Assembly (NCBI GenBank): GCA_003221195.1
Contig: QHQO01000021.1
Span: 1 to 45,151 of the forward strand
DNA: 45,151 nt
Reading direction: 5' to 3'
Source of the DNA: Verrucomicrobiota bacterium
GTDB lineage: Bacteria > Verrucomicrobiota > Verrucomicrobiia > Chthoniobacterales > UBA10450
The translations under genes and the position numbers were made by a program. Below the pieces are notes generated by a model. It was not told the origin of the DNA and made no database searches. It worked only from the letters and a program-made list of their open reading frames with translations. Below are positions 13,363 through 22,733 of this stretch, piece after piece (position 1 is the stretch's first letter; the number at the start of each line of letters is the position of its first letter).

Positions 13363-15591
13363 TTACCAGTCCTTATAGACATGGCGCGTTGCTCTGCGTT
13401 CATCAAGTTGAACCCGCGCCTCCTCGTCTTTCATCGATTCCAGAAGCGCCTCGGCCTGGCGTTCGCTCATCTGGCCCTCCTTCTCCGCTTCAGCTTCAGC
13501 TTCGGCCACCTGCGCGTTCTGATCAGGCGGCTTCTGTGATTTCTCTTCGCCGGCTCCCTTCACTTCACCCGCAAGTTTCTTGGATTCTCCAGGAGTCGCG
13601 GAAGGCGTCGTGTTTTCCCCTTCACCCTCTCCTGGGGATGGTGAGGGGGTTTCATTTTCTCCTTCGCCCGGGCTCGGCGATTCTTCACCTTGTCGTTCTC
13701 CTGGCGAGGGTGAGGGTTGTTGACCTTGTTGCTTGTCGGCGCCCGGCGAAGGAGAAGGAGTCTCCCCAGGCTGCTGCTGTTTTTTTTGCGGTTCGTTCTT
13801 CGCCTGAGCTTGGTCGTTTTTTTCCTGTTGCTGATCTTTCTGATTTCCAGACTTGCCTTGTGATTGCTGATCTTGGGGCTGCTGCTGGTCTTTCTGTTGC
13901 TCCTCGCCCTGACCTTGTTGTTGCTGTTGATTCTGTTGTTGCTGTTTTTGTTGTTCTTGCTGTTTTTGCTGCTGGTTCTGCTTCTGATCCTGCTTGTTCT
14001 GTTTGTCCTGTTTATTCTTTTCGTTCTTCTGCTGCGGCGACGGGGAAGGGGAGGGCTGTTCTTGTTTTTTATTTTTCAGTTCTTCGATCTTCCGCTTCAC
14101 GTAATCGTAATTGTCCTTCGCTTCCTTGTTTTGCGGGTCGAGCTTGAGCGTTTGCTCATAATGATCGAGCGCATTTGTCCAGTCGCTGAGCTTTTTATCA
14201 TCGCCCTTTTGCGCTTCGCCACGCTGATAAAGTGTGTTCCCAAGGTTATAATGGCCTTTGCTTTGCAAAGCGGTATCCCGGGAAAGCAATGCTTGGCTAA
14301 ATGATTCCAGCGCCTTACTGTAATCCTTCAGTTTGTAAGCAGCTGCACCTGAGTCGAACTGTAGCTTGTCCTCTGCGCGCGATTGCGGATGGGATTTTAA
14401 CGCGTTCTGAAATTGGCTGTAGGCGTCTTCGAATTTTCCGCCGCGATACGCGTCGAGACCCGGCGCGGTAGCGAAGGCAGGTGAAAACAGGAACATCACG
14501 AGAAGTGCGGTGGCAGCTGCGGCCCCGGCAGGCGCGTTGGCAACGCCACGCGCAGCCTTGCGAGCAGGCGCGACAGCATAAGCTCTTTGTCGCGCCCGTT
14601 TTCGTTCGGGAATCAGGATCGACAGTGCGAGAGCGATTAACGCTGCGCCGAGCGGCCATTCGTAACGTTCAATCGGTCGACGCGACAAACGCACATCCAT
14701 TTCGGCAGCCTGCATTTTTGCCAGGCCCTCATTCTGAATTTGCTGCATCGTGCGAGGTCCGTTTTCCAAGTGAAGATAAAAACCCCCGGTAGTCTGAGCG
14801 ATTTCGCGCAAACGTTTATCATCCAGCTTCGATTTAACGACTTGACCGGAAGAATCTTTGACGAAGCTGGTTTGACCATCGTCGCCGGTCACCGGAATGA
14901 GTGAGCCCTGTGGTGTTCCGACGCCTACCGTGAAAATCCGCACACCGGCGTCGACCGCTTGCTTCGCGGTTTTCATGGCATCCCCACTTAATTCTTCGCC
15001 GTCGGTGAAGATGACCAGAGCGCGATTTCCCATGGCGCTTTTACCGAAACTCTGCGTGGCGAGAGTAATCGCGCTGGAGATATTGGTGCCGCCTTCGGGA
15101 ATCGTCTTGGTATCCAGATCGTTCACGGCCTCAACTACCGCGTCGTAGTCAATAGTCAGAGGCGCCTGTAAAAACGCGCGTCCTGCAAAAGCAATCAGAC
15201 CAACACGATCGCCCTGCAACTGAGTGATCAAGTCCTGGATCGCCAGCTTGACGCGATCGAGTCGGGCCGGCTGGACGTCATTGGAAAGCATGCTGCGCGA
15301 TGTATCCACGGCAATCAACAAGTCGAGACCCTTGCGTTTCACGTCTTCAAACGTGTAACCCCAGCGTGGCTGCGCCAGACTGACAATGGCCAAAGCAAGG
15401 CCGAGCAATTGCAACGCAAATCTTAATATCCGACGGGGACGATTCATCGTTCCAGCGAGTTGGGGCAGCAGTCGCGCCGAAACGAATTCCTGCAATCGTT
15501 TGAGCCCGCGCTGTTCCGAACTAACGAACAACGCAATCAGAAGTGGGATCACAAGCAATCCCCAAAGCCATTGTGGAACGCCGAAGCTCAT
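13363..15591 (-). CDS. batB: BatB-BatC fusion: von Willebrand factor A domain plus TPR and charged tail
   Basis: With ATG 15589-15591 (MSFGVPQWLWGL) the protein has 742 residues. It carries an N-terminal membrane helix pair, a vWA domain with MIDAS residues (AVDTSRSM; TNISS; FTDGEE), a third helix near residue 310, a second hydrophobic segment near 370, TPRs (YRGGKFEDAYSQFQNALKSH; KGHYNLGNTLYQRGEAQKG; NALDHYEQTLKLDPQNKEA), then about 230 residues of Gln/Lys and Pro-Ser-Pro-Gly-Glu low complexity. BatB and BatC are separate in many genomes; here they are one chain. The ORF extends 29 residues upstream, but that part is a microrepeat hairpin, so the later ATG is preferred. Confidence 0.88.
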   Translation of the reverse strand: MSFGVPQWLWGLLVIPLLIALFVSSEQRGLKRLQEFVSARLLPQLAGTMNRPRRILRFALQLLGLALAIVSLAQPRWGYTFEDVKRKGLDLLIAVDTSRSMLSNDVQPARLDRVKLAIQDLITQLQGDRVGLIAFAGRAFLQAPLTIDYDAVVEAVNDLDTKTIPEGGTNISSAITLATQSFGKSAMGNRALVIFTDGEELSGDAMKTAKQAVDAGVRIFTVGVGTPQGSLIPVTGDDGQTSFVKDSSGQVVKSKLDDKRLREIAQTTGGFYLHLENGPRTMQQIQNEGLAKMQAAEMDVRLSRRPIERYEWPLGAALIALALSILIPERKRARQRAYAVAPARKAARGVANAPAGAAAATALLVMFLFSPAFATAPGLDAYRGGKFEDAYSQFQNALKSHPQSRAEDKLQFDSGAAAYKLKDYSKALESFSQALLSRDTALQSKGHYNLGNTLYQRGEAQKGDDKKLSDWTNALDHYEQTLKLDPQNKEAKDNYDYVKRKIEELKNKKQEQPSPSPSPQQKNEKNKQDKQNKQDQKQNQQQKQQEQQKQQQQNQQQQQGQGEEQQKDQQQPQDQQSQGKSGNQKDQQQEKNDQAQAKNEPQKKQQQPGETPSPSPGADKQQGQQPSPSPGERQGEESPSPGEGENETPSPSPGEGEGENTTPSATPGESKKLAGEVKGAGEEKSQKPPDQNAQVAEAEAEAEKEGQMSERQAEALLESMKDEEARVQLDERRATRHVYKDW

Positions 15592-15600
15592 AGCGGAAAT

Positions 15601-15662
15601 GATGCTCGATACTCGATACTGGATGCTAGATGTACGCATCGAGAATCCAGCATCCAGTATCC
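15601..15662. repeat. Hairpin microrepeat between batA and batB
   Basis: An 18-bp inverted repeat with two mismatches: cgatactggatgctagat at 15614-15631 and its near complement at 15645-15662, with a 13-nt loop. It is preceded by tandem 'gatactc' units. It fills most of the 109-bp batA-batB gap and could act as an mRNA stabiliser or attenuator. Similar 'gatactggatgct' units occur in related genomes, by memory only. Confidence 0.7.
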
Positions 15663-15700
15663 AGCGTCGTGCTGCCACGCGGTAAAATCTGATTTCAAAT

Positions 15701-16747
15701 TCACGGCAATTTTTTCCAGATGGTTTGCGACAATAAAATCTGCGCCAGCAACAGCCCGCAGCCGCTCATCAGACACAGCGGAAATAAGTCGCGGTATTGT
15801 TGATATTTTTTCACGCTAACCGTCGATTTTTCCAGCTTATCTATGTCGTTATAAATTTGTTCCAACGATTGTGTATCGGTCGCGCGGAAGAACTTGCCGT
15901 CGGCAATTTTAGCCACTTCTCTTAGACCGGCCTCGTTAAATTCCACGCGCTGGTTTTCATAGAGAATGTTACCTAATGCATCTGTTAACGGTCCTTTGGG
16001 AGTGAATATTGGGGCGGGGGCGATCCCGTTGATTCCGGCGCCGATTGCATAGAGGTGGATCTTTAACGCTTTGACTGCTTCCGCCGCAGTATTTGGTGGA
16101 ATTTTACCAGCATTATTTTCTCCATCGGTTAACAGAACGAGCACGCGACTTTTTGAACGTTTGTCATTTAACCGATTAGCTGCTGCTGCCACGGCCGATC
16201 CAATGGCAGTGCCATCCTCGACCAGTCCGATCCGCACTCGATCCAGATTTTGAAGTAGCCAATCGTGATCCAGTGTCATTGGGCTTACGACGTACGGACG
16301 ACCTGCGAATGCGATGATCCCGATTCGATCATTTGGCCGGCCTTCGATAAATTTACGTGTGACTTCGCGAATCGCATCGACACGCGTCGCTTCCTGCCCG
16401 CCGATGGTAAAATCCTTGGTCAGCATCGATCCGGAGACATCTAGCGCGAGAATAATGTCGATCCCACTGGCCTCGATCTGCGTAAGACTCTTGCCGAGTT
16501 GCGGACGCGCCAGCGCGATCACGAAGACAGCAAGCGAAGCCAGAAGCAATGTTCGCAGAATTTTCCCTGCACGGGCGGCGCTTTTTTTTCCGATCGCCCT
16601 AAGGCTTGCTGTGGATGAAAAAGTCAGCGCAGCGGCCGGGCCGCGTTTTCCACGCAAATAGGCGAGCAACGGAACTCCGAGGAGCAACAGGAGCAGCCAC
16701 GGATGCGCGAAGGTCAACGCGCTATTTCCTGTGAACCAATCAAACAT
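15701..16747 (-). CDS. batA: BatA: membrane-anchored von Willebrand factor A protein
   Basis: A 348-residue protein with two N-terminal membrane helices (HPWLLLLLLGVPLLAYL; LRTLLLASLAVFVIALA), a vWA domain with a full MIDAS (LALDVSGSM, DGTAIGSA, LLTDGENNAG) and a C-terminal helix (LCLMSGCGLLLAQILL). The AFAGRPYVVSPMT stretch is typical of BatA. Its ATG is preceded by a near-perfect Shine-Dalgarno (AAAGGAGGT, complement of 16753-16761) that lies inside the upstream gene, which it overlaps by 34 bp. It should form part of a MoxR-dependent envelope complex. Confidence 0.92.
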   Translation of the reverse strand: MFDWFTGNSALTFAHPWLLLLLLGVPLLAYLRGKRGPAAALTFSSTASLRAIGKKSAARAGKILRTLLLASLAVFVIALARPQLGKSLTQIEASGIDIILALDVSGSMLTKDFTIGGQEATRVDAIREVTRKFIEGRPNDRIGIIAFAGRPYVVSPMTLDHDWLLQNLDRVRIGLVEDGTAIGSAVAAAANRLNDKRSKSRVLVLLTDGENNAGKIPPNTAAEAVKALKIHLYAIGAGINGIAPAPIFTPKGPLTDALGNILYENQRVEFNEAGLREVAKIADGKFFRATDTQSLEQIYNDIDKLEKSTVSVKKYQQYRDLFPLCLMSGCGLLLAQILLSQTIWKKLP

Positions 16748-17280
16748 GGTTGACCTCCTTTCACGAAGCGGATCGCTTCCTCAAGTAATAATTCACTATC
16801 TGAAAGTGTTGCCTCGTACCTTGCAAACTTGATTAGGTCGCAGCGGTTCAAGAAATCTTCGAGCAGCGACTTTTCGTCGTCGGAGAATGGCGATGAACCT
16901 CGGAGCCCATTCAGAAACTCGACAGAAGTTTGCCGCGTGACGGGTAATCCGAACTGTTCTGTCACGTAGCGCCTGAGAATGTCCGACACACGGATACTGA
17001 AGCGATATGGATCGATCGCCGTGATCTGCCCTCGTATTTGCTCGAGCAACGCAAGTGCGCGCTCGCGCGGTAGTTGGGGCGGCGTAGGACGCCGAAAAGA
17101 TTTCGCAACAAACCACACGATCAGACCGATCGTCGTGAGCAAGACGAACACTCCCAGAAAAATCAGCCACGGCGAAAGCAACGAATAATCGACCGGCGGC
17201 GTAATATCGTGAAACTCCTCAGCCAACAGTAACGGAATAATGGAGTAGTGGAGTAGCGGAGTAGTGGCAGGCGAATTCAT
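16714..17280 (-). CDS. DUF4381-like membrane protein of the Bat operon
   Basis: A 188-residue protein with one strong membrane helix (SPWLIFLGVFVLLTTIGLIVWFVA) and a cytoplasmic helical domain (ALALLEQIRGQ; FSIRVSDILRRYVTEQFG; TSVEFLNGLRG). This is the small protein usually found between DUF58 and the vWA genes. The first 20 residues (NSPATTPLLHYSIIPLLL) are translated from an 8-bp tandem repeat, so the true start may be lost or replaced; no other ATG lies before the helix. It overlaps batA by 34 bp and starts 35 bp after the DUF58 gene. Confidence 0.75.
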   Translation of the reverse strand: MNSPATTPLLHYSIIPLLLAEEFHDITPPVDYSLLSPWLIFLGVFVLLTTIGLIVWFVAKSFRRPTPPQLPRERALALLEQIRGQITAIDPYRFSIRVSDILRRYVTEQFGLPVTRQTSVEFLNGLRGSSPFSDDEKSLLEDFLNRCDLIKFARYEATLSDSELLLEEAIRFVKGGQPCLIGSQEIAR

Positions 17281-17295
17281 TTCATCACTCCATTA
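17238..17295. repeat. 8-bp tandem repeat with inverted copy at the DUF58 / DUF4381 junction
   Basis: Four 8-bp units (taatggag, tagtggag, tagcggag, tagtggca) run from 17238 to 17269. The first nine bases, taatggagt, are matched in inverse by actccatta at 17287-17295. The repeat supplies the N-terminal codons of the DUF4381-like protein and could fold as a hairpin over its start. Confidence 0.6.
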
Positions 17296-17315
17296 CGCAT
17301 CGCTGCTGCGATCTC

Positions 17316-18200
17316 TCATCGAATGCCGATGCGGCGCTCCCGCTGTTTGAAAAAGGAGCGCAGCTGCGGCAGATAGTCTTTGCCGGTTTGCAGGGCGATC
17401 GCGTCGATATTGTTCCGGCGCAGCATGCGCGCAAGCTCATGCTCGTGTTCATCCACAAGCCCGCTAAAACGCGCCCGCGTTGTGCGATCCGCCGTATTGA
17501 TCTCAATTTGATCGCCGGTCTCGGCGTCTTCCAAGGTGATGATGCCGATATTTGGCAATACCCGTTCTCGTTCATCGTGGATATGGATGGCCACGAAATC
17601 GTGCCGCCGTCCACTCACTGCCAGCGCTCGCGAAAAATCGGGCGCCTGAAAATCCGAAATGAAGAAAACCACGGCGCGGCGTGTGACAATTTTATTCAGA
17701 TAGTCGAGGGCCAGCGCTGGCTCTGTGCCCCGTCCCTTTGGTTCGAAAAACAAAATCTCCCGGATAAGTCGTAGCGTATGGGAGCGGCCTTTCTTTGGAG
17801 GAATAAAAAGCTCAACGCGATCGGTGAAGAGGATGAGTCCGACCTTGTCATTGTTCCTGATCGCGCTGAAAGCGAGCAAGCACGCAACTTCCGCTGCCAA
17901 CTCCCGTTTTGATTGCGTTGTGCTTCCGAAGTTTCCCGATGCGCTGACATCCACAACCAGCATTACAGTTAGCTCGCGTTCTTCCGTAAATTTTTTCACA
18001 AACGCGTTGCCCATCCGTGCGGTCACGTTCCAGTCGATCGCCCGGATCTCGTCGCCGGGCTGATACTCACGCACGTCTTCAAAATTCATTCCCCGGCCTT
18101 TGAAAACACTGTGGTAATCGCCGGCGAACGCGGTCTCGACGAGGCCTCTGGTTTTTATCTCCAGGGTTCGGATCTTCTTGAGAATCTCTGCGGGGTCCAT
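17316..18200 (-). CDS. DUF58 family protein (vWA-like)
   Basis: A 294-residue protein with the DUF58 signature: DYHSVFKGRGMNFEDVREYQ, PGDEIRAIDWNVTARMG and KKFTEERELTVMLVVDVSAS. The last part resembles a vWA first strand with D-x-S-x-S. No membrane helix is seen. DUF58 proteins are usually encoded directly after moxR and are thought to be its partners in protein-complex remodelling. Here the two genes are separated by an inverted-repeat cassette, and the DUF58 ATG (18198-18200) lies only 6 bp from the cassette edge. Confidence 0.92.
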   Translation of the reverse strand: MDPAEILKKIRTLEIKTRGLVETAFAGDYHSVFKGRGMNFEDVREYQPGDEIRAIDWNVTARMGNAFVKKFTEERELTVMLVVDVSASGNFGSTTQSKRELAAEVACLLAFSAIRNNDKVGLILFTDRVELFIPPKKGRSHTLRLIREILFFEPKGRGTEPALALDYLNKIVTRRAVVFFISDFQAPDFSRALAVSGRRHDFVAIHIHDERERVLPNIGIITLEDAETGDQIEINTADRTTRARFSGLVDEHEHELARMLRRNNIDAIALQTGKDYLPQLRSFFKQRERRIGIR

Positions 18201-18206
18201 TTACCT

Positions 18207-18237
18207 GTGAGAAGTGATTGGTGAGAAGTGAGAAGTA
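18207..18237. repeat. Left arm of the cassette inverted repeat
   Basis: It is built from gtgagaag units in tandem. It lies 6 bp upstream of the DUF58 start codon on the minus strand and 57 bp after the S23 stop codon. Confidence 0.8.
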
Positions 18238-18294
18238 GTCATGCGAAAAACTCTTCGACAGTCGAGGACTGTTTGCTCATCGAGTCGGTCTCTT

Positions 18295-18705
18295 CTACGC
18301 GCGAAGCGCCTCGATAATCTGTCGCTGGAGATGCTTACAGAAGTCGTCTGCACGGTCGATCATGCGCGACAGCATCTGGCCAATCGAGATGCAGTTCGAA
18401 TCAAGAGTGTTGAATTGCTCGATTGAGAGGTACTTCGCGTCCCGCGCATCGTCTAACCACGATTGCGTTTCGGTAGCCTCGCCCAAGGCTTCATCCAGCT
18501 TGTTTACAAAGACCGCCTTGTAGCGGCGCCGTCCCCAAGCCTCGGCGATCATCGCTTTCACCGCACGTGAGCTCCTGCGAATCTGATCAGTGAGTGAGTA
18601 ACGTTCTTCAGGCGGAAATTCGCGACTGAGCCCAAAAATCTCCTGCGCCGTTTCTCGGGCTTTCCGATAAACATTTAGATCACGAAACGATCTTGCGATA
18701 GCCAT
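18295..18705 (-). CDS. Four-helix bundle protein (S23 / 23S rRNA intervening-sequence protein family)
   Basis: A 136-residue soluble all-helical protein. Family features are the N-terminal FRDLNVYRKARETAQEIF, the FPPEERYSLTDQIRRSSRAV turn, the IAEAWGRRRYKAVFVNKLDE helix and the final GQMLSRMIDR helix. Relatives are encoded inside 23S rRNA intervening sequences and include the Avd accessory protein of diversity-generating retroelements; they bind nucleic acid, but most have no known role. ATG 18703-18705 is preferred to GTG 18709, which lies in the repeat. The protein is not a known part of Bat operons, so this gene is a guest. Confidence 0.88.
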   Translation of the reverse strand: MAIARSFRDLNVYRKARETAQEIFGLSREFPPEERYSLTDQIRRSSRAVKAMIAEAWGRRRYKAVFVNKLDEALGEATETQSWLDDARDAKYLSIEQFNTLDSNCISIGQMLSRMIDRADDFCKHLQRQIIEALRA

Positions 18706-18708
18706 CGA

Positions 18709-18739
18709 CACCTCTCACTTCTCACGAATCACTTCTCAC
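18709..18739. repeat. Right arm of the cassette inverted repeat
   Basis: Inverted copy of the left arm. On the minus strand it ends with gagaggtg three bases before the S23 ATG, so the repeat itself supplies a weak ribosome-binding site. It begins 7 bp after the moxR stop. Confidence 0.8.
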
Positions 18740-18746
18740 TTGGGCA

Positions 18747-19733
18747 TCATGGCACAGGCAATCCAGCAAAAATTCTCTCAATAATCGTCTCGCTGGTAAC
18801 TGCCTCCGCCTCGGCTTCGTAACTGACGATGATGCGATGTCGAAGCACGTCAGGCCCGATGCTCTTGACGTCCTGTGGGGTGACATAACCGCGGCCGTTC
18901 AGAAACGCATGAGCCCGAGCGCCGAGAGCAAGATAGATCGTCGCACGTGGTGAAGCTCCGTAACGAATGAGCCCTTCGAGTCGTAAGTTGTAGGCTGCCG
19001 GCTCGCGCGTCGCCCAGACGACGTCCACAATGTAATCCTTTACGCGGTCATCGATGTAAATGCTGTTAACCACGTCCCGGGCAGCGATGATTTGCTTCGG
19101 ATCAACCACTGGATCGACTCGCAAATCCGGCGAGGAAGTCGCCATCAAGTCGAGAATGTTTCGCTCCTCGGACTTTTGCGGATAACCAATGTTCAATTTG
19201 AACATGAAACGGTCGAGCTGCGCTTCCGGCAGTTGATAAGTTCCTTCCTGTTCAATCGGGTTCTGCGTCGCCAAAACAAGAAACGGATCGGAAAGCGGAT
19301 AGGTTTGCTCGCCGATGGTGACTTGCCGCTCTTGCATCGCCTCAAGCAACGCGCTCTGTACCTTGGCCGGTGCGCGATTTATTTCGTCGGCCAGGATTAG
19401 ATTTGAAAAAATCGGGCCGAGCTTGGTGGTAAATTCCCCTGTCCGCGGATTGTAAATGAGAGTGCCGATTAGATCCGCGGGTAAAAGGTCTGGCGTGAAT
19501 TGCAATCTTTGGAAACCAGTCTGGATGCAGGCGGCCATCGTTTTTACCGTGAGCGTCTTGGCTAGCCCCGGGACGCCTTCGAGCAGGAGATGACCATTAG
19601 CGAGCAGCCCGAGGAGGAGACGATCCACCAAATATTTCTGGCCTATGACCACGTGACCAACCTGTTGGCGGAGCCCTGGAATCCATTGGCCCAGCTCCCG
19701 AACTTCTTGCGTAATTTCCTGCGTAGATTTCAT
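18747..19733 (-). CDS. moxR: MoxR-family AAA+ ATPase
   Basis: A 328-residue AAA+ ATPase. Walker A is GVPGLAKT, Walker B LILADEINRA, sensor 1 LATQNPIEQEGTYQLPEAQ, and the lid domain contains RYGASPRATIYLALGARA. MoxR proteins act as chaperones for vWA-containing partners; the partners here are DUF58, BatA and BatB, all downstream in the same direction. It is the first gene of the operon. The 144-bp gap to the divergent gene at 19878 should hold the operon promoter, but I cannot pick out a confident -35/-10 pair. Confidence 0.95.
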   Translation of the reverse strand: MKSTQEITQEVRELGQWIPGLRQQVGHVVIGQKYLVDRLLLGLLANGHLLLEGVPGLAKTLTVKTMAACIQTGFQRLQFTPDLLPADLIGTLIYNPRTGEFTTKLGPIFSNLILADEINRAPAKVQSALLEAMQERQVTIGEQTYPLSDPFLVLATQNPIEQEGTYQLPEAQLDRFMFKLNIGYPQKSEERNILDLMATSSPDLRVDPVVDPKQIIAARDVVNSIYIDDRVKDYIVDVVWATREPAAYNLRLEGLIRYGASPRATIYLALGARAHAFLNGRGYVTPQDVKSIGPDVLRHRIIVSYEAEAEAVTSETIIERIFAGLPVP

Positions 19734-19859
19734 ACGGACTCGTGAGACATGCAGGCCGGGGAGAACGTTCGATCAAACGTGCCGCAACCTGCTGAATTTC
19801 TGCTCATTTCGCTCACGAATCTCCCGGTCTACTCGCGTGAGCGCACCGGCAGAATAATG

Positions 19860-19871
19860 CTAAACGTTTAG
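19860..19871. promoter_or_regulatory. 12-bp perfect palindrome in the moxR / GT-C divergent gap
   Basis: The site ctaaacgtttag is a perfect palindrome that lies 6 bp before the ATG at 19878. Its place between divergent genes suggests an operator, but no matching regulator is known and a 12-bp palindrome can occur by chance. Confidence 0.3.
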
Positions 19872-19877
19872 ATCGCA

Positions 19878-22733
19878 ATGTTCCTTCTCAAGCCATGGCA
19901 TCGAGCGATTGGGGTAGCCGCCTTTGCAGGTGTCGGGCTATCGGTCCTCACATGGATCGCCTGGAATGATCCGGCTATCAATTTTTTGAGCCGTGATAAA
20001 CGAGCCGAGTGGATAGTCTTTCCTGCTGCAGTTGACGCCCACGCGCATTGGTTCGCCAGTCTCGACGCAACGTTCCGGCGCGAGTTTGTTTTGACGGACC
20101 GACCGGCGACCGCGCGTCTGGGTGTTCGCGCAATGCGGGGCGCCGAAGTGAGAATCAATGGCGGACCCATTCGCTTTCCGTCGAATCGCAATTGGAAAGA
20201 GATTGTGAGCGTCGACGTTGCCGGGCAATTACAGGGAGGCAGTAACGTGATCGAAGCTCGCGTCTTTAATCATAATGGACCCCCGGCGCTGTGGCTTACT
20301 TTGAATACGGATCAACTAAGTCTGCGCAGCGACAAAACCTGGGAAGTATCGTTTGCCGGTTCTTCATGGCGTCATGCCGCGTTGGCCGCGGCGGCGAAGA
20401 CTCCAGGGCCCGGTAATTCCATTGCTGGCGGGGAAGGTACGTTTGACGCGCTGAAAAAAGTTTGGCCTTTTTGGATAGTTCTCCTTGTAATCGCTTCTGT
20501 AGCCATCTTTATCTGGAACCTCATCCTTAAAAGCTCCACAACACGATGGCTGGAAAAAACACTCTTGCTCATCCTAGCCGGCCTCTGGTTGCTGTTATTC
20601 TGGAATAATTCGCGGCTGTTGCCGTTTCACGCGGGCTTCGACGCGAAGGAGCACCTCAAATACATCAACTACATCCAGGAACACCGCGCATTGCCGTTGG
20701 CGAACGAAGGCTGGGAAATGTATCAGCCGCCGCTCTATTACTTGATTGCCGCGGCCAGCCTTTCAGCGTGCAAACTGTCAATCAACGATCCTGCGTCCAT
20801 TTTATTACTGCGTTTGATCGGCGCGTTCTTGGGCATCGCCCAATTCATCTTTGTTTTTCTTAGTTTACGGCTTTTGTTTTCTGCGCGAACCGCGTTCGTC
20901 GGACTTTTGCTCGCAGCATTTCTGCCGATGCACGTGTATCTCGCACAGTATGTGACGAATGAAATGCTGGCCGCCACTCTGGCCACAGCGACGCTATATG
21001 CATGTTTGCGACTGCTGAAGAGCGATACGCCGTCCGCGTCGCAGTTCGCCTGGGTCGGATTCACGCTTGGCGCAACGATGCTGGCGAAAGCGACCACAGT
21101 TTTGCTACTTCCGATCGCGATTGCTGCAATCGCTGGGAAGCTCGCTTACACGCGAGCGCGACTCGCAATTTCGCTGCGCAACCTTGGGCTACTGCTTACG
21201 ATATGTCTTACCGTGTGCGGCTGGCATTACGCGCGCATCTGGCTGAGGTTCGGTACGCCACTCCTTGGCAACTGGGATGTAGTCAGCGGATTCACCTGGT
21301 GGCAGGACCCCGGTTATCACACTGCGACTGATTACCTTCGTTTCGGCCGGTCGTTGGTGCATCCACTCTTCAGCGGTTTCGCCGGATTTGCTGACGGAAT
21401 CTATTCCACGCTTTGGGGTGACGCATTATGCGGCGGCGCGTCGAGCCTGACCTTCGCCTGGAACGGGCAGCCAATGGTAGCCGGTTATTTGTGGGCGGTG
21501 ATTCCCACGGCGTTGATTCTCGTAGGCGTCGTCGCCGCGATCGTTCGGTTTATTCGAAAACCTTCCAGCGAATTGTTCGTGTTACTTGGTTTCTGGACAG
21601 TACTCGTGCTCGGCTTAATTTTTATGACCCTCAAAGTTCCTTCCTACGCACAAGCAAAAGCGTTCTACGGGTTGTCGGCTCTTACGTCGATTTGCTTCTT
21701 TGGCGCGCTCGGTTGGGAAGTGCTGACATACGGCAGTAGGCGTCTGCGGTTTGTTCTTGATATGCTGATCTTAGTTTGGGCGATGAATAGTTTCGCCACT
21801 TACTGGATTGTTCCTTCGGTGGCGCAACATCTGTATGCCGCAAAAGCTTTTGGCGTTCAGGGCAAGATCGACCACGCCGCCGCCGAAGCGCTTAAGGCTG
21901 TAGAAGCAGATCCCTCCAATGCGACCGCACGCGGCTTTCACGCCTTGAGCTTGAGTGAACTAGGCCAGGATGAGGAAGCCATTAAGGAAGCCGAACGGGC
22001 GGTTGAGCTGAATCCGGCCGATTCTGCCGCCTATTTGAACCTCGCTTTCTCAGCAAAGCGCAGTGATCCCGAACACGCAATCGCGGAAGCTCGCCACGCC
22101 ATCGAGCTTGGCCCTGAAAATTCTTCGGCCTACCAGCTCCTGATGAATTGTCTTTTCGAATCGCGCCGCTACAGCGAAGCGGTCGAGCTTGGACGAGATT
22201 GGGTGACTGTATCGCCATACGACGCCGCTGCTCATTCCGCGTTAGGAACGGCTCTGGCCGAAAGCCATGATTTTGTATCGGCAGCGCAGCACGTCGGTTA
22301 CGTGATGATGCTGCGGCCGGAAGTTGAACAAGCTCATGCACACCTGCGGCAGATTCTCCTATCGATGGCGAAGGAGCCAGATGGTTTGGAGCGACTCCGG
22401 GACATCGCTGCAAACGCGCCGGATTCACCGCGGATGCTCGACGAACTGGCTTGGTTGCTTGCGACGTATCCCGATTCGAAATCGCGCGACGGATCCGAAG
22501 CGGTTCGTCTTGCCGAACGCGCTTGCGCTCTGACCGAACGTCGGATCCCAGCTCTTCTCGATACCCTGGCTGCGGCTTATGCTGAGGGAGGAGATTTTCC
22601 GCGGGCAATCAGCGTTGCCGAAGAAGCGCTCAATGACGCGCACTCCTCGGGCGACAATGATGCCGTCAAGCTGAGCGAAATCATTCTTAGATCACTTCGC
22701 GGAAGCCTTCCCTATCGCCAAGAGCCGGAGTAA
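19878..22733 (+). CDS. GT-C-like membrane glycosyltransferase with beta-sandwich and TPR domains
   Basis: A 951-residue inner-membrane protein in three parts. After one membrane helix, residues of about 40-150 form an extracytoplasmic beta-rich domain (FRREFVLTDRPATARLGVRA, VNGQ-like segment). Next come 10 or more helices with a GT-C pattern: an acidic loop after the second helix (HAGFDAKEHLKYINYI) and YQPPLYYLIAAASL, as in polyprenyl-phosphate-dependent mannosyl or arabinosyl transferases. From about residue 660 come TPRs (DPSNATARGFHALSLSELGQ; NPADSAAYLNLAFSAKRSD). The substrate is unknown. It reads away from moxR and stops 5 bp before the convergent der gene. Confidence 0.75.
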   Translation: MFLLKPWHRAIGVAAFAGVGLSVLTWIAWNDPAINFLSRDKRAEWIVFPAAVDAHAHWFASLDATFRREFVLTDRPATARLGVRAMRGAEVRINGGPIRFPSNRNWKEIVSVDVAGQLQGGSNVIEARVFNHNGPPALWLTLNTDQLSLRSDKTWEVSFAGSSWRHAALAAAAKTPGPGNSIAGGEGTFDALKKVWPFWIVLLVIASVAIFIWNLILKSSTTRWLEKTLLLILAGLWLLLFWNNSRLLPFHAGFDAKEHLKYINYIQEHRALPLANEGWEMYQPPLYYLIAAASLSACKLSINDPASILLLRLIGAFLGIAQFIFVFLSLRLLFSARTAFVGLLLAAFLPMHVYLAQYVTNEMLAATLATATLYACLRLLKSDTPSASQFAWVGFTLGATMLAKATTVLLLPIAIAAIAGKLAYTRARLAISLRNLGLLLTICLTVCGWHYARIWLRFGTPLLGNWDVVSGFTWWQDPGYHTATDYLRFGRSLVHPLFSGFAGFADGIYSTLWGDALCGGASSLTFAWNGQPMVAGYLWAVIPTALILVGVVAAIVRFIRKPSSELFVLLGFWTVLVLGLIFMTLKVPSYAQAKAFYGLSALTSICFFGALGWEVLTYGSRRLRFVLDMLILVWAMNSFATYWIVPSVAQHLYAAKAFGVQGKIDHAAAEALKAVEADPSNATARGFHALSLSELGQDEEAIKEAERAVELNPADSAAYLNLAFSAKRSDPEHAIAEARHAIELGPENSSAYQLLMNCLFESRRYSEAVELGRDWVTVSPYDAAAHSALGTALAESHDFVSAAQHVGYVMMLRPEVEQAHAHLRQILLSMAKEPDGLERLRDIAANAPDSPRMLDELAWLLATYPDSKSRDGSEAVRLAERACALTERRIPALLDTLAAAYAEGGDFPRAISVAEEALNDAHSSGDNDAVKLSEIILRSLRGSLPYRQEPE

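Follow-up and report, generated by a model that had tools for sequence, protein, structure and literature searches.

The window analysed here is a 45,151-nt stretch of contig QHQO01000021.1 (contig code C59; L-, G- and C-numbers denote loci, genomes and contigs, respectively) from assembly GCA_003221195.1 of a soil Verrucomicrobium, referred to below as the own genome. Between a moxR gene and a DUF58 gene on the minus strand lies a compact unit consisting of a single S23-family gene enclosed by two inverted arms (Table 1). A first-pass annotation of this DNA, from which the names moxR and DUF58 are taken, had described 31-nt arms with 28 inverse matches, one S23-family gene between them and spacings to the moxR stop and the DUF58 start of 7 and 6 nt, respectively. 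All of these points were confirmed exactly, the gene by matches to PF05635 and TIGR02436 above cut-off and the spacings by the ends of the open reading frames (ORFs). The start codon of the S23 gene is a GTG located within the arm; its third codon is ATG. In an inverted-repeat scan of the window, the arm pair (30 nt at 93%) was the first listed of 47 inverted pairs at the settings used. The unit lies outside any rRNA gene; an Rfam search of positions 15000–20500 at E ≤ 0.1 found no known RNA family at the unit, and a search with defence-system models gave no match.

Table 1. Features of the S23 unit and its surroundings (positions in the window).
Feature	Position	Strand	Basis or remark
Upstream arm (5′ in the S23 transcript)	18709..18739	−	Degenerate 7-bp tandem: GTGAGAA, GTGATTC, GTGAGAA, GTGAGAG, then GTG
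Downstream arm, inverted copy of the upstream arm at 28/31	18207..18237	−	Sequence reading and repeat scan
S23 / 23S_rRNA_IVP four-helix-bundle gene	18295..18711	−	ORF of 138 aa, profile matches
Spacer, moxR stop to unit, 7 nt	18740..18746		ORF ends
Spacer, unit to DUF58 start, 6 nt	18201..18206		ORF ends
moxR, upstream neighbour	18747..19733	−	Name from the first-pass annotation; orthologues in congeners by tblastn
DUF58 gene, downstream neighbour	17316..18200	−	Name from the first-pass annotation
S23-less hairpin, 7-bp tandem arms of TACTGGATGCT type, like those of the S23 unit L012 (own genome)	15604..15672		Scans
Probable decayed hairpin, GGAGTAGTGG 8-mer arm, like those of the S23 unit L013 (own genome)	17236..17296		By eye only; absent from the scans shown

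The S23 protein matched PF05635 with 106.4 bits (cut-off 33.8, Pfam search) and TIGR02436 with 95.9 bits (cut-off 24, NCBIfam search); its match to bAvd, 26.2 bits, was under the cut-off of 40. The AlphaFold model is a four-helix bundle with a mean predicted local distance difference test score of 95.9. The solved folds nearest to the model are 2gsc and 2rld, both S23 structures, followed more weakly by Avd (4dwl; template modelling scores 0.71/0.90, E 0.011), a protein of diversity-generating retroelements (DGRs). Similarity of PF05635 to the DGR accessory protein Avd/bAvd has already been noted (PMC10053308). The nonsynonymous divergence (dN) of S23 is far below the synonymous divergence (dS), at 0.022 versus 1.09 in the pair L085–L051, so the protein seems constrained, which suggests purifying selection. 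No nuclease family was found among the Pfam and NCBIfam matches of the unit and no Y1 HUH transposase in it, its sole long ORF matching PF05635 and, below cut-off, bAvd. A phage search for S23 returned one weak match only.

The unit composed of an S23 gene and its arms is a real and general phenomenon. At least one PF05635 gene was found in 49 of 58 genomes searched, including the own genome, where nine of the ten such genes have inverted arms scoring at least 15. The arm sequences differ among these ten loci and include GTGAGAA, AAAGTTG-type, TACTGGA, GGAGTAAT, CGTCCT, TGCTGAT and CGAAATC. A set of 129 unique S23 loci was compiled, mostly from best-scoring matches and with no random draw, after removal of duplicates and of loci with less than 100 nt of flank on one side. 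The inverted-arm score was at least 12 in 117 and at least 14 in 103 of them; the direct-repeat control on the same loci gave 10 and 4, mismatched left and right flanks 7.9% and 4.3%, and the reversed-only control none at the higher threshold. Ordinary genes of the own-genome sample reached these scores in 26 and 10 of 453 cases. Since a score of 14 is reached by 103/129 S23 loci versus 10/453 ordinary genes, the arms in the window are not due to chance. Beyond this first set, 20 of 30 measured loci scored at least 14 (mismatched control 4.7%); 33 had been collected, three were too short, and two (L351 and L362) re-sample the units L076 and L067. The 20 include cyanobacterial plasmids, mostly with 8-mer GCAGAGGA-like types, two cas operons, Azospirillum, Gemmatirosa, a bin labelled Meiothermus, Auribacterota and Victivallales. 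The ten loci below 14 are L297, L298, L350, L352, L354, L355, L360, L364, L372 and L376.

The arms follow a distinct grammar. In 42 equal-length representative pairs, the self-match of an arm was 0.61 at lag 7 and 0.58 at lag 14, with 0.35 at lag 8 and 0.20–0.29 at the remaining lags between 3 and 13. A period of 7 was best in 43 of 63 representatives, 8 in 12, 12 in five, 6 in two and 9 in one. In the 42 representatives, the left–right identity of the arms is 0.88 in register and falls to 0.61 after a one-unit shift; each arm, taken as a whole, is thus an inverted copy of the other. A further comparison, of left/right arms with the arms of same-site mates (62/80), was biased, the arms having been picked for left/right similarity, and was not used. 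The first-pass annotation had proposed that the transcript folds into a stem. A fold with paired arms is indeed predicted (minimum free energy −209.3, z −4.38, 0/100 shuffles as good). Mismatches between arms over 103 units were G–U-compatible in 95 cases and of A–C type in 95 (48 and 57 in the 63 representatives), and this lack of G–U bias gives no sign of selection keeping an RNA stem. An RNA wobble signature was, in this test, absent. In the CGTCCT family, both ends of the L014 unit (C39) and at least one end of the L016 unit (C202) are small hairpins themselves, so a single long stem is not required in such a unit.

Arms and S23 travel together. Among 110 units (score at least 13, protein at least 75 aa; the same units were used for the site clades), arms at different sites were alike in 0–2% of pairs with S23 identity under 55%, in 14% at 55–60% (n = 94), in 31% at 60–70% (n = 239), in 62% at 70–80% (n = 37) and in 88% above 80% (n = 8); the reverse-complement control was 0 in every identity class. 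The Mantel rho between arms and S23 was 0.26, with a maximum of 0.10 in 500 permutations. At the 3′ end of ligA, both the arms and the S23 of unit L117 fall within the lineage of the sdhA–sdhB junction. The link between arms and S23 genes, raised in the first-pass annotation, therefore holds insofar as the arm family follows the S23 lineage; it is not exclusive, the same arms being present also in short hairpins lacking S23.

The units are placed in the sense orientation at gene junctions. The upstream gene is on the same strand in 102 of the 108 units with both neighbours called (six more were without), and genes on both sides are on the same strand in 89; counted by site cluster, of which the 110 units form 43, the upstream gene is on the same strand in 39 (p = 3e-8). 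Units begin a median of 5 nt after the stop of the upstream gene (n = 102) and end a median of 4.5 nt before the start of the downstream gene (n = 90). Neighbours were called by a simple longest-ORF rule, and the frameshifted units L077 and L080 are counted twice.

Junctions varying in unit content comprise moxR–DUF58, sdhC–sdhA, sdhA–sdhB, cysD–cysN and ligA (the names sdhC, sdhA, sdhB, cysD, cysN and ligA were read from translations, with no family search behind them). At moxR–DUF58, 21 junctions of the genus are readable (L082–L102; L103 is cut by a contig end). Nine of them hold an S23 unit (L085 in two frames), four a different unit with CATTCCGAGCGAAG-type arms, four short relics, and four are clean, with 15–27 nt between the genes; none of eight more distant loci (L104–L111) has S23 at this junction. 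The first-pass annotation had named constant presence of the gene here in close relatives, with unrelated flanks, as a ground for refutation; the gene is present in nine of the 21. The units with CATTCCGAGCGAAG-type arms encode GIY-YIG proteins, recognised by PF01541 in L090 and L095 and by likeness only in L084 and L096; in L084 the unit is placed after the remnant of an S23 unit. The sdhC–sdhA junction is a bare ATGA overlap in 11 of 27 readable loci. In the own genome, it holds a 497-nt S23 insertion between duplicated CTATGA, a 6-bp duplication relative to the clean empty sites; in the sister species G016 the insertion is another one, 85 nt long and bordered by AGCTATGA at either end, and in L311 it is an S23 unit with only ATGA repeated. 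Doubling of ATGA is expected anyway, because both genes need their own stop and start, so at this junction solely letters beyond ATGA count for target duplication. At cysD–cysN and sdhA–sdhB, the arms belong to several different families. A gene-less hairpin family, GGTAGGGCGCGACCGCCGGGCGCGCC, occurs at sdhA–sdhB in other species (L310, L311 and L316).

Units are also replaced in situ. When the own genome is compared with G016, the flanks around the unit are 94% identical and dS is 0.22 for moxR and 0.26 for DUF58; dS of the S23 gene between them is saturated. The pairs L052–L053, L053–L060, L052–L060 and L102–L049 behave alike, with a flank dS of 0.17–0.70 and an S23 dS of 1.25 or saturated. 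The pair L083–L051 shows the reverse, with flanks at 1.53 and 1.39 versus 0.71 for S23; in most other pairs the flanks are too diverged, and dS is finite for all three genes in 50 of 253 pairs. In 50-bp windows along the own–G016 pair (L082–L083), identity is mostly 90–100% in the flanks and 60–86% in the unit, with the step at the arms, the exception being two windows at 82% near the moxR end. Three other pairs have a similar profile; in L102–L049 the flanks are lower, mostly 84–94%. Among 239 same-site pairs (a few with the split gene L077), the median identity of the S23 coding sequence is 0.69–0.75 at any flank identity. S23 is lower in five of the six pairs with flank identity of at least 0.90, the exception being L125–L011 at 0.96; in L045–L122 the S23 unit is 0.90 identical and the flanks 0.77–0.79. 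As judged from these alignments, the exchange pattern is that of a homing or cassette-exchange element. The same-site S23 genes mostly form one clade (110 units), and because one site mostly corresponds to one clade, exchange would occur largely between same-site units of different species, jumps to new sites being rarer.

Judging by miniature hairpins, relics and S23-less forms, units are not only gained but also reduced and degraded. The ligA site of L390 contains a miniature hairpin that has the L117 arms but is too short for S23, and relics are present in L388 and L391. Since L390 looks like a deletion derivative of the L117 unit, internal deletion explains at least one S23-less hairpin; the notion that such hairpins are purely trans-mobilised copies is countered by the same locus. 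The arm sequence of the window recurs in the own genome without S23, in short hairpins on contigs C75, C200 and C54. A further match to the arm sequence lies on C20. A 592-kb sample of the own genome, chosen partly for contigs with known arms or S23, contained 11 short tandem-arm hairpins, three of them located at the S23 genes of C39 and C202; a Markov shuffle of the scanned sequence contained no tandem-arm hairpins. The S23-less hairpin in the window with TACTGGATGCT-type arms is a probable miniature relative. The reading frame of the ORF at 13363–15678 passes through this hairpin, so the listed N-terminus of this ORF may be artefactual.

Intervening sequences (IVSs) of 23S rRNA have been known since 1990. 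An S23 match was found inside a full-length 23S rRNA (Rfam RF02541, L300 786–3984) on plasmid AZO_p2 of Azospirillum lipoferum 4B. The arms of L300, TCAGAGGACGGATGACAGAGGACGGAGGACAGAAAG versus TCAGAAGACGGATGACAGAAGACAGAGGACGGATAG, are tandem GACRGAN heptamers, and from the flanking letters we take the insertion site to be helix 45. The helix-45 IVS of Coxiella burnetii is described as having a 28-bp terminal stem and, at its 5′ end, heptameric GACAGAT repeats in tandem; RNase III cuts it in vitro where the first repeat begins (PMC4990558). According to the same study, the functionality and origin of IVSs remain unclear. The classic IVS and the operon unit share the gene, the arms and the arm grammar. 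The proposal that the unit is an mRNA-operon counterpart of the 23S IVS is well supported by the recurrence of the unit, by its presence and absence at the junction in congeners and by an IVS with arms of the same kind. The first-pass annotation as a whole is partly supported; the heptamer structure, the many arm families, the replacement in situ and the other hairpin units at the same junctions had not been part of it.

The feature in the window is probably, with some reservation, a copy of a recombinase-less, mobile element with S23 as its single gene, one habitat of which is the 23S IVS; this judgement includes the mechanism that follows. The S23 protein, having an Avd-like fold, would bind its own arms, either as a hairpin or as a heptamer array, and would promote annealing and exchange, whether at matching arms or at a new site. 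As a nuclease, a transposase and a reverse transcriptase (RT) are all missing from the unit, the exchange would run on host replication and repair. Insertions might survive where they are harmless, either between genes or in rRNA helices trimmed by RNase III. S23 would be expressed by read-through from the host operon, and dependence on such read-through would explain the fixed sense orientation. It is possible, though we hold it with less than even confidence, that this constitutes a new class of element lacking recombinase, nuclease and RT, in which the Avd-like S23 recognises lineage-specific 7-bp arrays and homes unit-precisely, by annealing, at the stop/start junctions of operons; 23S IVSs, S23 genes in cas operons and at least some heptamer arrays would be its products, and units with GxxExxY genes between 9-bp arms a parallel family.

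Several observations weigh against the mobile-element interpretation. In the own genome, the inverted arms of L016 score 12 and a direct repeat is stronger there at 22.5; in L014 the direct repeat equals the inverted-arm score, and in L298 and L375 of the wider set it exceeds it. Twenty-six of the 129 S23 loci score below 14, and the complement-only control reaches 14 in 13 of 129. Two genomes in which S23 was not detected contained two tandem-arm hairpins in a 285-kb sample. On the S23 tree, 43 sites account for 47 changes and a site label is mostly confined to a single clade, so that a unit rarely jumps to a new site. Target-site duplication was tested as a general property and rejected: 14 of 102 units share at least 5 bp at their edges, compared with 16.7% of mismatched pairs, and only sdhC–sdhA suggests one. 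The Coxiella S23p, as published, is probably unexpressed and its ORF is decaying, so it looks dispensable (PMC4990558).

A different explanation is that the unit is a resident mRNA-processing cassette kept by the host, in which RNase III cuts the stem and S23 bound to it tunes moxR relative to the Bat genes. It would suit the predicted paired-arm fold (z −4.38), the purifying selection suggested by dN 0.022 versus dS 1.09 in L085–L051 and the cleavage of the Coxiella IVS by RNase III in vitro (PMC4990558). However, only nine of the 21 congener junctions contain the unit and four are clean, other hairpin families occupy the same junction, the 110 units are spread over 43 site clusters, the arms have no G–U bias and units are replaced by diverged ones; this explanation is consequently regarded as unlikely. 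Ordinary homologous recombination by itself, with the arms as fossils of the original insertion and an unrelated function of S23, is likewise given a rather small chance. It accords with the relatedness of most same-site units and with the two 50-bp windows falling to 82% near the moxR end in L082–L083, but identity otherwise steps within about one 50-bp window of the arms, where ordinary recombination should carry more flanking sequence along, and the arms follow S23 across different sites.

Movement of the unit in trans by a host RT, with S23 acting like Avd in DGRs, would be in keeping with the match of the S23 model to Avd 4dwl (template modelling scores 0.71/0.90, E 0.011) and with the fixed sense orientation, which would suit an RNA intermediate; two RT genes are present in the own genome, on contigs C117 and C119, with none on C59 according to the RT search. 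Yet the RT search was positive in no more than 17 of 56 genomes and negative in 39, the latter including the near-complete, S23-rich genomes G016 (96% complete, 12 S23 genes), G007 (96%, five) and G014 (92%, 12). A host RT as a required partner of the unit is rejected on the grounds of these 39 genomes, and its participation as such appears improbable. Chance, or an artefact of assembly or annotation, might be invoked for draft metagenomes, which these assemblies are, but the same architecture recurs in many genomes and in complete plasmid records, and this explanation is hardly credible.

Other genes are also found between arms. Among relatives, this applies to GxxExxY/PDDEXK_3 genes (PF13366, L262–L291): 22 of 26 loci measured among the 30 fetched score at least 14 (mismatched control 7.7%), often with 9-bp tandem units (CACGGATGAA, CACAGAGGA), and PF13366 had no match in the own genome. 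From their build, the GxxExxY units look like a parallel family. Hairpins of the 9-bp CACGGAGA type in G044, a genome with no S23 found (L227 1914–1990 and L222 2314–2423), have arms resembling those of GxxExxY units. Small GIY-YIG genes (L084, L090, L095, L096 and L232–L261) often lie between CATTCCGAGCGAAG-type arms, and the moxR–DUF58 junction occupied by the S23 unit is used by units with these arms as well. Of 30 PF01541 loci, 21 were measured, one having been dropped for short flanks and eight as long, presumably UvrC-like frames; 12 of the 21 score at least 14 (mismatched control 13.6%). In two cyanobacterial plasmids, pANA02 of Anabaena sp. 90 (L373) and pPg_01 of Pseudanabaena galeata (L375), an S23 gene with tandem-repeat arms is located in a cas operon, in the order cas6–S23–cas4.

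The question of the origin and movement of 23S IVSs is over 30 years old. Provided that operon junctions commonly harbour the unit, that species exchange it and that it keeps a conserved protein, rRNA IVSs become a side habitat of a widespread mobile element; if this is true, S23 would be a candidate agent of a new way of moving DNA. A mobile S23 unit could also account for some of the known heptamer arrays between genes and for the presence of S23 within cas operons. Copies are numerous in nature, and empty sites and sister pairs are available along with them for testing. Literature searches, which did not extend to most subscription journals and preprints, listed no paper dealing, by title and the start of the abstract, with S23 units with heptamer arms outside rRNA; S23 or four-helix-bundle proteins are mentioned within the text of others, such as PMC8700078 and PMC5524665.

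Compared with known systems, the unit resembles insertion sequences and miniature inverted-repeat transposable elements in having terminal inverted repeats, but differs in showing no excess of target-site duplication in 102 units. The likeness to REPIN/RAYT systems consists of short hairpins plus a longer gene-bearing copy, in intergenic positions and several per genome; unlike them, the S23 unit lacks a transposase, contains its gene S23 inside the unit and has arms made of 7-bp arrays, with many arm families coexisting. With endonuclease-type homing elements it shares horizontal turnover at one site with conserved flanks, whereas no site-specific endonuclease family is among its Pfam and NCBIfam matches. 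The S23 fold and weak sub-cut-off sequence matches recall Avd of DGRs; in contrast to a DGR, no RT gene was found beside S23 on C59. TAACTGA and related heptamer direct repeats have been described in Beggiatoaceae, cyanobacteria and Bacteroidetes (PMC4679880); like the arms, they are intergenic 7-bp tandem repeats, often near start codons, but direct repeats are treated there and the main text makes no mention of S23. The closest likeness is to the 23S IVSs of Coxiella (PMC4990558) and Azospirillum (L300), which also have an S23-family ORF inside, a similar size, terminal inverted repeats of about 28–36 nt (28/31 complementary in the window unit) and heptameric repeats at the ends, the last not being a formal criterion. 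The window unit differs in lying between protein genes and in the many arm sequences found across units; being outside rRNA, it is not a member of the 23S IVS class, and the most apt description is that of a form of the same element residing in protein operons.
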